Positions 6,081 to 44,172 of a DNA stretch of 64,000 nt are shown here, one piece after another. The first letter of the stretch is position 1; the number at the start of each line of letters is the position of its first letter. The position numbers and the translations under genes were made by a program. Source of the DNA: Fibrobacter succinogenes (GTDB taxonomy: Bacteria; Fibrobacterota; Fibrobacteria; Fibrobacterales; Fibrobacteraceae); assembly GCA_902756345.1 (NCBI GenBank), contig CACVQR010000003.1:1-64000 (forward strand), in the 5' to 3' direction. The notes under the pieces are model-generated. The model was not told the DNA's origin, did not search any database, and saw only the letters and a list, made by a program, of their open reading frames with translations.

Positions 6081-7127
6081 TTAGTAATCCTTTACGCAAC
6101 GAACATAATAAGGATTATGTTTACCACCATGAAACTGGTCACCAACCCACATATATTCGTCATTAACTATTACACGATAAGTTCCTATAGCACTCGATTC
6201 GTTAGGCAGAATAAAATCAGCAGATTTCCAACTCACCTCATAATCTCGCATCGAGAACAAAACAGACATTCCAGATGAATTTGCCCCAATCTTTTTCAAT
6301 TTCCAATTTGATTTTGAAGCAAGATCTAAACCAGCACTCGACGTATAGGTTCTCCATTCATAACCATTCATAATATGCCATCCATCCGGACATATTCCCT
6401 GATGGATTTGTCCGTCACCTTCAGATGCCGCTTTCCAAAGTAGCGTATCGTATTTCGCAGGCAAAGCCATCGCTTCACTCCAAGTATAAAGTCCGCCCCA
6501 CCCATTATTACAGAACCACTCATCATTCAGTTCACAATGTTTTTCTACCTTCGTATCATCAAGCATTCTTTCACTGGAATCAATCATCACACCATAATTC
6601 AAGTTTTGAGCAAAAACTTCTATTTTATCTTCTGAGCCATACGATTCAGATAAAATAACCGTTTTATACACTTGATGGTCTCGAGGATCTTCAAATTCAC
6701 TATAAACAGGTTCATAATCCGAAGCAAACAAGCTATCCATATTGGGGTAAACTTTTTCCTTAGGTTTGTAAACGATGGAATCAGTCTCCCAAAAGCCATC
6801 CTCACAATGAGCGTATACAGTACGATTCTCCTGATACAACGTGTCTAGAGAACCTTCATCACAGTATTTCAATACGAATTCGCTACTACTCGACTCAACC
6901 ACAGACGAGCTACTATTCTTGCCGCTTACGGAACTAGAAGAATTCTTTTCTGCAGCCGAGGAACTGGATTTTTTAGAATCTTTCTGGGAAGACGAGGATG
7001 CAGAACCGTTGTCATCATTGCTACTCGACGAGATTTCACCGATTGGATCGGGAGCGGAGCTACTCGATTCATCGCCGCAGGCAACAAATAAAACCGCAGA
7101 AAGCAACAACACAACAAAATATTTCAC
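6081..7127 (-). CDS. FISUMP-domain lipoprotein
   Basis: 348 aa. The signal peptide ends L-F-V-A-C, giving a predicted lipid-modified Cys17, followed by a long Ser/Asp/Glu-rich tether (about 18-85) with repeated S-S-S-S blocks. The C-terminal 200 residues are a 'Fibrobacter succinogenes major paralogous' (TIGR02145) domain: it has VFAQNLNYGVM, the ICPDGWHIMNGYEW segment and the closing YYVRCVKDY. The family is abundant in Fibrobacter, is predicted to lie on the cell surface, and has no assigned biochemical role. The start is GTG at 7127, chosen because AGGAGG lies 8 nt upstream. Confidence 0.85.
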   Translation of the reverse strand: MKYFVVLLLSAVLFVACGDESSSSAPDPIGEISSSSNDDNGSASSSSQKDSKKSSSSAAEKNSSSSVSGKNSSSSVVESSSSEFVLKYCDEGSLDTLYQENRTVYAHCEDGFWETDSIVYKPKEKVYPNMDSLFASDYEPVYSEFEDPRDHQVYKTVILSESYGSEDKIEVFAQNLNYGVMIDSSERMLDDTKVEKHCELNDEWFCNNGWGGLYTWSEAMALPAKYDTLLWKAASEGDGQIHQGICPDGWHIMNGYEWRTYTSSAGLDLASKSNWKLKKIGANSSGMSVLFSMRDYEVSWKSADFILPNESSAIGTYRVIVNDEYMWVGDQFHGGKHNPYYVRCVKDY

Positions 7128-42470: not shown

Positions 42471-42562
42471 AATGATACAAAATCAAGTAATTTTTGTTGA
42501 TTTAAGTAATTTTGTTATAAATTTACAAAAATCAAATTCTAAATAATACGTTTTGTATCATT
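42471..42562. promoter_or_regulatory. Paired operator-like inverted repeat between divergent genes
   Basis: AATGATACAAAA (42471-42482) and TTTTGTATCATT (42551-42562) are perfect complements whose starts lie 80 nt apart. Between them are two AAGTAATTTTTGTT-type direct repeats (42484 and 42505). The right copy overlaps the -33 element of the small plus-strand gene. Binding by the TIGR02147 regulator is inference. Confidence 0.5.
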
Positions 42563-42583
42563 TGGAGGAAAAAGCTATATTTG
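42552..42583 (+). promoter_or_regulatory. FCB-type promoter of the ArfA-like gene
   Basis: TTTG (42552-42555), a 20-nt spacer and TATATTTG (42576-42583) match the TTTG-N19-21-TAnnTTTG pattern known from Bacteroidetes. It also reads as TTGTAT-17-TATATT in sigma-70 terms. The start of transcription should fall near 42590. Confidence 0.7.
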
Positions 42584-42601
42584 CCCTTCAAGGAGGCCCC
42601 T

Positions 42602-42841
42602 ATGGCTAAACATAACAGTAAGGCGGCTGGCAAATTGGCCGAAACCGCCAAGGAGAGCGTGATGTTGCGCATGCTACGCATAGGCGGCTCCCAGAACGGA
42701 GCCACGTTACGGACAAGGGTTGTCCGCGACAAGACAAAGTACAATAGGAATATCAAACACAAGAAATCCCTCGCCGATGCGGGGGATTTCCCTTTTATAC
42801 AGGCAGTCGCAGGTTATTTGCCCGTTGCAATCTTGCCGTAA
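42602..42841 (+). CDS. arfA: Small basic protein, candidate ArfA-type ribosome rescue factor
   Basis: 79 codons. A strong AAGGAGG lies 5 nt before the ATG and a good promoter upstream, so the gene is real. The first 55 residues are basic; ATLRTRVV followed by a K/R-rich segment with K-Y-N-R-N-I-K-H-K resembles the E. coli ArfA core (PLFRQRV...SYMRKGKH). A perfect terminator hairpin starts at codon 54 with no stop codon before it. The remaining 24 codons encode a hydrophobic tail (DFPFIQAVAGYLPVAILP), as the E. coli ArfA tail that triggers degradation. The frame ends 27 nt inside the 3' end of the convergent phosphatase gene. By eye the similarity is weak, so the family call is tentative; that the gene is expressed is more certain. 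Confidence 0.6.
   Translation: MAKHNSKAAGKLAETAKESVMLRMLRIGGSQNGATLRTRVVRDKTKYNRNIKHKKSLADAGDFPFIQAVAGYLPVAILP
42763..42797 (+). terminator. Terminator hairpin inside the ArfA-like frame (also serves the minus strand)
   Basis: GAAATCCCTCGC-CGAT-GCGGGGGATTTC is a 12-bp stem with one G-T pair and a 4-nt loop, followed by CCTTTTAT. It lies within codons 54-66 of the small gene. On the minus strand it is 24 nt past the phosphatase stop codon and can end that transcript too, though with a poorer T tract. Confidence 0.8.
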
Positions 42842-44154
42842 AATTCCTTGACGTCTTCCCAGCGGTAATACGGGGCGGCGGGGCAGTTCTTTACTGTTGC
42901 TGTATCGCATGTCACGGGCAGCTTCTGCTCGGTTTCGTTGAGCATCACCTTCACGAGGATGGGGGCGCCCTTCTTGCTGGACTTGTAGAACACTATCTGC
43001 ACGTTTGCTGCCATAGGGCTGATTTCGTAATCGCGCCAGGCCTTGTGCAGGTTTTCCATGTCGGCGGTCTCGATGCCGGTGTTCTGCGTGCCGTTCTCCA
43101 ATTGCAGCAGTACGGCGAACGGGAAGATGACGGTATCGTGCCCAAAGCGGAGCGTTGCGGTGGTCTTTTTCGCGTGCTTTGCAGCTGTCTTTGCGGTTGC
43201 TGAGCTTGTCGAAGCGTCTGCTTTGGCGGTGTCTGCGGCGATTACTTTGTCTGCTTCGTCAAGAACATTTTTTAAGAGCGGGCGAGCGTTGTCGAGCCCC
43301 TGCTTCTTGGCGAATGGATTGTTGCCGAGAACGCTGTACCACCAGGCGTTCTGTGCATGCCAGCGAGCGGCAAGGTCTTCTTCGGTCCACAGGTCGTCAA
43401 AGCTGAATTCGATTTCGGGGCTGCCTTGCAGGCTATTTCCGATTTCATAAATCTTGCTTAAAAGATCGCCTCCGTCTACATTTTTCTTGATGTAGTTGGA
43501 ATCGTTGAAAATGGCGCGCATCATGCGAGTCGGATTTACATGGCTGTACAGCTTTTCGTTTTCCTTTTGCCATGCGAGAGTGTTCGATTCGTTGATAATC
43601 TTGCCAAAATCAAGCGGGCTGATAAAACTCATCAAGTATTTGCCCGATTCTTGGTGAATCTCGACCTTGGGCTTTTGTGCATGCAGTTCTTCGAGGAATG
43701 CGGCCATGCTCACGACGCAGCGCACGCTGGTGCTGGCGTAGGCTTCTACGTAGGCGTCATTCTTGAACACTTCGGGAAAGTTCTTGACCATGCGTTTTGC
43801 AATTCCCTGGTGCTGGGCTACGCCGAGCTGGGTCAAGTCGCCTGCGCGCGGGGCGGCGTATTCGTCTAAGTACTTGGCGCGTTCAAGCAGGCTTTTGCCC
43901 AAATCGGTGAGCTTACCTAAAGAATCGGCCTTGGCAAGCGTGCTGTACAGAGCGTGGTAATGGTCGGCAGGCTGATGAAAACGGCTGCCGTGTCTGCCAT
44001 AATGACTCAGGTAGAATGGCTTGTAGCCTGCGGGAGCCTTGGTGTACTTGGCATTCGGGGTGGGGTAGGCGTAGTAGTTGCTACCCATCTGGTAACGGTC
44101 CTGGGCGATTCCTGAAATCGCCATTGTGAGCAACAGCGCGAGAATTTTTTTCAT
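42814..44154 (-). CDS. Secreted histidine acid phosphatase (phytase/MINPP-like)
   Basis: 446 aa. Signal peptide (about 1-17). The catalytic motif HYGRHGSRF is the RHGxR of branch-2 histidine phosphatases, and GHDTVIFPFA supplies the proton-donor HD near residue 330. The length and spacing fit bacterial multiple inositol-polyphosphate phosphatases, which release phosphate from phytate. Just before the HD motif is a Ala/Lys/Thr-rich insert (ADASTSSATAKTAAKHAKK) that overlaps a dispersed-repeat sequence. Start 44154; four codons upstream give a second Met. Confidence 0.87.
   Translation of the reverse strand: MKKILALLLTMAISGIAQDRYQMGSNYYAYPTPNAKYTKAPAGYKPFYLSHYGRHGSRFHQPADHYHALYSTLAKADSLGKLTDLGKSLLERAKYLDEYAAPRAGDLTQLGVAQHQGIAKRMVKNFPEVFKNDAYVEAYASTSVRCVVSMAAFLEELHAQKPKVEIHQESGKYLMSFISPLDFGKIINESNTLAWQKENEKLYSHVNPTRMMRAIFNDSNYIKKNVDGGDLLSKIYEIGNSLQGSPEIEFSFDDLWTEEDLAARWHAQNAWWYSVLGNNPFAKKQGLDNARPLLKNVLDEADKVIAADTAKADASTSSATAKTAAKHAKKTTATLRFGHDTVIFPFAVLLQLENGTQNTGIETADMENLHKAWRDYEISPMAANVQIVFYKSSKKGAPILVKVMLNETEQKLPVTCDTATVKNCPAAPYYRWEDVKEFYGKIATGK
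43199..43215. repeat. Widespread short repeat inside the phosphatase gene
   Basis: GCTGAGCTTGTCGAAGC matches a short motif (CTTCGACAAGCTCAG) that is common in dispersed repeats of many genomes. Here it encodes ASTSSA in the low-complexity insert just upstream of the HD motif. Confidence 0.45.
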
Positions 44155-44172
44155 ACTGCTAACCACCTGTTA

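Follow-up and report, generated by a model that had tools for sequence, protein, structure and literature searches.

A reading frame that is open through a terminator-like hairpin

This locus raises the question of why a short reading frame continues without a stop codon through a perfect hairpin and a T-run, and whether its product could be a ribosome-rescue factor of the ArfA type. The window, i.e. the whole stretch of DNA analyzed here, comprises 64,000 nucleotides from Fibrobacter succinogenes. A sequence-only reading had described a 79-codon frame with a strong ribosome site, a promoter and a hairpin within the frame, and had interpreted it as a candidate ArfA-type gene that was apparently undescribed in Fibrobacterota. 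The features of the locus are summarized in Table 1.

Table 1 Features of the candidate rescue locus and its downstream neighbor in the window.
Feature	Position	Strand	Basis
Promoter-like element, TTTTG-N20-TATATTTG (Bacteroidota-type −33/−7)	42551..42583	+	Sequence; type inferred
Shine-Dalgarno sequence, AAGGAGG	42590..42596	+	Sequence; AAGGAG(G/A) in nearly all orthologs
Candidate rescue-factor ORF, 79 codons including the nominal stop	42602..42841	+	ORF list, orthologs
ArfA-like core, LRTRVVRDKTKYNRNIKHK, residues 36–54	42707..42763	+	Common to phage relatives and phage ArfA
Lys-His motif K52-H53, Y-x-R-x-x-K-H spacing as in ArfA	42755..42760	+	Invariant in alignments A1 and A2
Perfect 12-bp hairpin (terminator stem), codons 54–63	42763..42790	+	Sequence, folding, conservation
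T-run CCTTTTATA, where the non-stop mRNA is expected to end (inferred from sequence)	42791..42799	+	Sequence; conservation extends to roughly +8 of the stem
Nominal stop and tail without conservation; transcription probably rare	42800..42841	+	Identity, stop statistics, neighbors
Convergent downstream gene, 450 codons, not part of the system	42814..44166	−	ORF list, neighbor comparison

The frame and the ribosome site were found as described, with the start codon ATG at 42602 and the nominal stop codon TAA at 42839–42841 on the plus strand. The encoded protein is short and basic, and is probably disordered. A promoter was also present; however, its type had to be corrected, as we take the element to be a Bacteroidota-type promoter and not an E. 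coli sigma-70 promoter. The sequence TAnnTTTG was located between −24 and −26 relative to the ATG in 30 of 47 orthologs, and in most relatives the Fibrobacter gene is preceded by a promoter of its own and by a divergent neighbor. From the promoter position we infer that the transcript would carry a 5' UTR of approximately 18 nt and contain this gene alone.

The hairpin, GAAATCCCTCGC-CGAT-GCGGGGGATTTC, consists of 12 pairs and is followed by CCTTTTATA, in which the T-run is short (TTTT after CC). No in-frame stop codon precedes it in the window ORF from 42602 on. Its folding energy was −20.1 kcal/mol; compared with dinucleotide-shuffled sequences, z-scores ranged from −3.2 to −4.4. When both strands of the entire window (64 kb) were scanned, only three hairpins combined 9 or more perfect pairs with a T-run, and the present one ranked among the two strongest. 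When the same peptide was recoded synonymously with the gene's own codon usage, the same stability was reached in 0.55% of the recodings.

Distribution and joint conservation of the frame and hairpin

Orthologs were identified in 49 of the 101 relatives searched and, within the genus Fibrobacter, in 66 of 80 genomes, including that of the cultured F. intestinalis ATCC 43854. A count of 67 genus genomes includes the truncated copy of genome G050, which is excluded from the 66. A full copy was absent from 14 of the 80 genus genomes, some of which are complete; therefore, the gene is not essential everywhere. The truncated copy in G050 (L110) is without the core and hairpin, and the 13 further genus genomes have no copy at all. 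Weak matches at five other loci (L106–L109 and L111) were judged to be chance matches, as they were in the wrong frame, contained internal stops or fell in unrelated genes.

In all orthologs, the protein was retained up to the end of the stem (...KHKKSLADAGDFPF or ...DAGDFPF) and diverged afterwards. Of 50 loci, 49 had the hairpin in frame; the exception was L032, which breaks off near a contig end. The first in-frame stop codon was located at least 9 nt past the stem in these 49 loci, and one ahead of the hairpin was never seen among the loci with an intact hairpin. In L033, a 27-nt insertion just ahead of the hairpin is itself in frame. Pairwise DNA identity was 0.88 within the stem but fell to 0.29 between +8 and +30 and to 0.27 further on; after the T-run, it was at the chance level. 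The mean distance to the stop codon was 19.8 codons beyond CCT-TTT compared with 22.4 expected by chance (P 0.23), although the loci are not fully independent in this test. Because the stop positions appear random and identity is lost beyond the stem, the alignments indicate that the frame up to the terminator is selected, whereas the stop codon and tail are under no visible selection. Comparison with relatives supported the proposal of a terminator within the gene: frame and hairpin were conserved together in Fibrobacter, and conservation was lost past the hairpin.

A Fibrobacter-type copy with the hairpin was also present on a 3.9-kb contig binned as Bacteroidales from horse faeces (L114), which may reflect a binning error or a transfer.

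Selection on the stem RNA

We examined codon choice in the stem. The codon for Ser56 was TCC in 51 of 51 sequences, while all six Ser codons are used in the same genes. Gly61 was almost always encoded by GGG; at other positions of these genes, 8 of 135 Gly codons are GGG. Asp62 was encoded by GAC only if its partner Lys55 ended in G or was replaced by Glu, and the wobble bases of these two codons co-varied (AAA/AAG against GAT/GAC, Fisher P 0.006). Amino acid replacements were likewise paired with preservation of the stem: Leu to Phe with Gly to Glu in L101 and L114, and Leu to Ile with Gly to Met in the paralog L050. Across 28 distinct stems, 97.3% of cells were paired, compared with 43–63% in slid-partner controls.

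Hairpins of unrelated sequence were located directly after the Y-R-K core in other genera (L103 in G165 and L105 in G162), and another unrelated hairpin occupied the same place in a different family of the phylum (L214 in G097). In these three loci, the frame was again open through the T-run. Their z-scores against shuffles were −3.9 (L103), −3.0 (L214) and −1.3 (L105), the last being only weakly better than shuffled sequence. Covariation was modest, as two pairs changed on both sides and shuffles equalled that in 209 of 500 cases. The case for RNA selection is therefore made by codon choice, the slid-structure controls and the unrelated hairpins at the same site; covariation alone would be insufficient. 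Judged by these comparisons, the hairpin arrangement is under selection, and we infer that constraint on the RNA accounts for the conservation of DAGDFPF in Fibrobacter.

Relation of the encoded protein to ArfA

The ArfA HMM did not recognize the protein. PF03889 (membership threshold, 25.5 bits) did not match the window protein even at E 10, and in 63 genomes it gave no hit over the cut-off and none at this locus. BLASTP between the window protein and E. coli ArfA gave no alignment, a search of viral contigs with E. coli ArfA found none, and the window protein reached no Pfam or NCBIfam cut-off. As direct searches for ArfA were negative, viral intermediates were needed to examine distant homology.

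Two phage sequences, L155 (TPLFRQRIVSDKTKYSRKGK) and L147 (EDPMFRQRIVPDHKKYTRKEKHG), served as bridges. When L147 was compared with the PDB, only ArfA was matched, weakly (E 0.15). The ArfA of Pseudoalteromonas phage J2-1 (L163, locus 383–538) passed both PF03889 (41.3 bits) and DUF7230 (28.6 bits), aligned with E. coli ArfA over 45 residues and was identical to residues 36–54 of the window protein at 14 of 19 positions (74%). Profile A5, built from 13 sequences of phages and Fibrobacter and containing no ArfA, matched six PDB chains, all of them ArfA (E 0.0038–0.012), and hhalign of A5 with eight ArfA sequences gave E 8e-6 and a probability of 84%. A Fibrobacter-only profile matched ArfA weakly (E 0.0015, probability 17%). 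Thus, the loose likeness to the ArfA core that had been pointed out stands as distant homology, supported by the profiles and the J2-1 protein; it does not extend to a PF03889 match, and the link is partly transitive, via phage sequences.

The residues shared with ArfA fall in motifs of known role. Y47, R49, K52 and H53 were invariant in 15 rows of alignment A1 and lost only in the divergent L103. In ArfA, the [LFM]RxRV segment forms the RF2-binding strand (PMC8012679), and the KH of Y-x-R-x-x-K-H contacts the mRNA channel in both ArfA and BrfA (PMC8012679, PMC6881298). ArfA of E. coli and other Gammaproteobacteria (PF03889) is also a small basic protein with [LF]RxRV and Y-x-R-x-x-K-H at spacing identical to that of the Fibrobacter protein, and its gene also has an in-frame stem-loop before the stop codon, which results in non-stop mRNA (PMC3989581). 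As a control, the in-frame stem-loops of E. coli arfA (L159) and Proteus arfA were recovered by the same pipeline. The Fibrobacter protein, from another phylum, differs from ArfA in that the KGKGS motif is missing and its loop is three residues shorter, reading DKTK; in that the ArfA N-terminal motif is missing and the N-terminus reads AKES...RIDGSQNGA; and in the absence of a conserved hydrophobic tail.

Phage relatives and families without a described function

Relatives such as MANKKKKNSAKENERMRKERIAGSDNGRTMRTRVVKDKKKYTRKTKHKKNEKSGDC are encoded by large rumen viral contigs of up to 416 kb (L093–L099, L132 and L142–L144). These relatives are hairpin-free and have an ordinary stop codon soon after KHK, with the next gene close by, from which we conclude that the conserved protein proper ends at the KH motif. 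They are candidate phage ribosome-rescue factors, as far as their sequences suggest. With the Fibrobacter protein and two of its phage relatives as queries, tblastn detected nothing in named phages; hence, the viral relatives are known from metagenome contigs only.

DUF7230 (PF23876) was matched by 9 of 15 core members (best E 3e-5); the window protein missed its cut-off (21.2 vs 27 bits), and none of 168 genomes of the phylum exceeded it. The window protein matched PHROG 2701 with E 1.4e-6. DUF7230 and PHROGs 2701, 18092 and 6310 have the core RxRV..DK.KY.RK.KHK in common with the Fibrobacter protein; neither a function nor a non-stop design has been described for them. Since the J2-1 protein passes both PF03889 and PF23876, these families appear to belong, as yet unnamed, to the ArfA superfamily. 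The J2-1 bridge also supports a putative role of DUF7230 and several phage families as rescue factors, the rescue activity itself being inferred.

A broader proposal remains tentative, and we regard it as a possibility that falls somewhat short of an even case. It holds that DUF7230 and PHROG 2701 are ArfA-superfamily rescue factors, that their chromosomal versions in Fibrobacterota gained unrelated in-frame terminators several times, that non-stop feedback thus evolved repeatedly on one scaffold, and that the unregulated phage copies would keep ribosomes free during infection.

ArfA-like short frames were also observed in named phages (L160–L162 and L164–L168), several of them annotated as hypothetical or not annotated. 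The hosts of these phages are Brevundimonas, Erythrobacter, Pseudomonas, Caulobacter, Roseobacter, Microcystis and Citromicrobium.

Proposed mechanism and the release factor

The locus very probably encodes, on the chromosome, an ArfA-superfamily ribosome-rescue factor that is translated from an mRNA ending inside the reading frame, the function being inferred. The comparisons indicate that the frame and its in-frame terminator are co-selected and that the core R-x-R-V ... Y-x-R-x-x-K-H ends just before the hairpin. The product is most likely a backup to tmRNA, a role that is again inferred. The original interpretation as an ArfA-type gene of non-stop design was therefore upheld by the co-conservation of frame and hairpin, the loss of conservation after the hairpin and the viral bridges to ArfA, with function remaining an inference.

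RNA polymerase would stop at approximately 42797, within the T-run, and RNase III may also cut the stem. The resulting mRNA would end without a stop codon, and ribosomes would reach its 3' end without being released by one. By inference from ArfA and BrfA, the product of approximately 65 residues would be tagged and destroyed while tmRNA-SmpB is working; upon failure of tmRNA, it would accumulate and recruit a release factor. The phage relatives, having an ordinary stop codon and no hairpin, would escape this tmRNA control.

Which release factor is recruited is a separate point. A variant compatible with the proposed mechanism is that rescue depends on RF1, or on RF1 and RF2, as for ArfT, instead of RF2 alone. 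The position of ArfA F25 (PMC8012679) is occupied by Leu in Fibrobacter and by Met or Leu in phages, and the genome has both RF1 and RF2, both of which would be compatible with this variant. We consider it unlikely, as RxRV, the beta-strand-like segment by which ArfA binds RF2, is retained and the phage bridges L155 and L147 carry Phe at the F25 position.

It could also be argued that this small protein binds ribosomes or RNA but has no rescue activity, and that its terminator overlaps the coding end by chance; the protein is short and basic, remains below every Pfam and NCBIfam cut-off, and has only an inferred function. However, a stop codon ahead of the hairpin, which could readily evolve, was absent from every locus with an intact hairpin, and the stop position after the hairpin is random. 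In addition, the sole PDB match of the family profile is ArfA, and the phage relatives that lack the hairpin terminate immediately after KH. These results make a protein without rescue activity improbable.

The tail and the downstream gene

The tail of the window protein beyond the hairpin is hydrophobic, as had been reported, with a GRAVY of 1.57. As a conserved feature, however, it could not be maintained: the in-frame tails of the orthologs had a mean GRAVY of 0.46, compared with 0.23 and 0.48 in the two unused frames. From 42814 on, the tail overlaps the 3' end of the downstream gene in antisense orientation; by eye only, we assume this gene to be histidine-phosphatase-like. The tails that are alike in L001–L007 coincide with the 3' end of the downstream gene in antisense (shown for L001–L004), and L027 has the same tail DNA in another frame after the loss of one T. 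The hydrophobic tail of the window protein is therefore incidental.

A role of the hairpin solely as a terminator shared with the convergent gene downstream, with an incidental frame overlap, is barely tenable: the next gene is convergent and ends near the hairpin in the window and many relatives, but the downstream gene varies between genomes and lies on either strand (the same strand in L009, L011, L014, L019, L026 and L028) while frame and hairpin persist, and the T-run is on the plus side and strongest there. The hairpin as the convergent gene's own element was rejected, as this neighbor changes among genomes.

Other rescue systems and significance

The genome encodes tmRNA (tag ADENYALAA), SmpB, RF1 and RF2 with SPF; NFACT/RqcH was not found in it. 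A short GGQ-domain protein that is neither RF1 nor RF2 and has no evident ArfB-type basic tail was located at L184 (G000:C10, near 6838–7014).

Among known systems, BrfA of Bacillus subtilis also has a rho-independent terminator inside the coding region, a product of approximately 62 residues and a Lys-His motif (PMC6881298). It differs in that it is narrowly distributed in Bacillaceae and has no sequence match to the Fibrobacter family, and PDB searches with profiles A1 and A5 returned no BrfA chain. ArfT of Francisella is also a short rescue factor with a basic C-terminal stretch, but according to its authors it is not produced from ArfA-type non-stop mRNA (PMC6299226). ArfB (YaeJ) has a similar backup role and its own GGQ hydrolase domain, whereas the GGQ motif is absent from the 79 residues of the window protein.

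To our knowledge, release factor-dependent rescue factors were previously limited to some Proteobacteria and Bacillus. The locus most likely provides an ArfA-superfamily backup factor in a phylum group without a known one, with the rescue function inferred. The claim that the system is undescribed in Fibrobacterota fits a survey of 15,000 genomes, in which arfA was found in 0 of 1,956 FCB-group genomes (PMC11633108). Unidentified rescue systems were predicted by the authors of BrfA (PMC6881298), and a review stated that finding them might need genetic screens (PMC8012679). Here, a frame without a stop codon before a conserved terminator identified a rescue candidate without a screen, which suggests a general search rule, and a testable function is offered for DUF7230 and several unnamed phage families.

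In the complete genome G159, nearly the whole N-terminal region of the protein is missing (MVKQNSNNGTTLRTR...) and the hairpin is retained (L102); this shortened form is a natural test of the role of the N-terminus.
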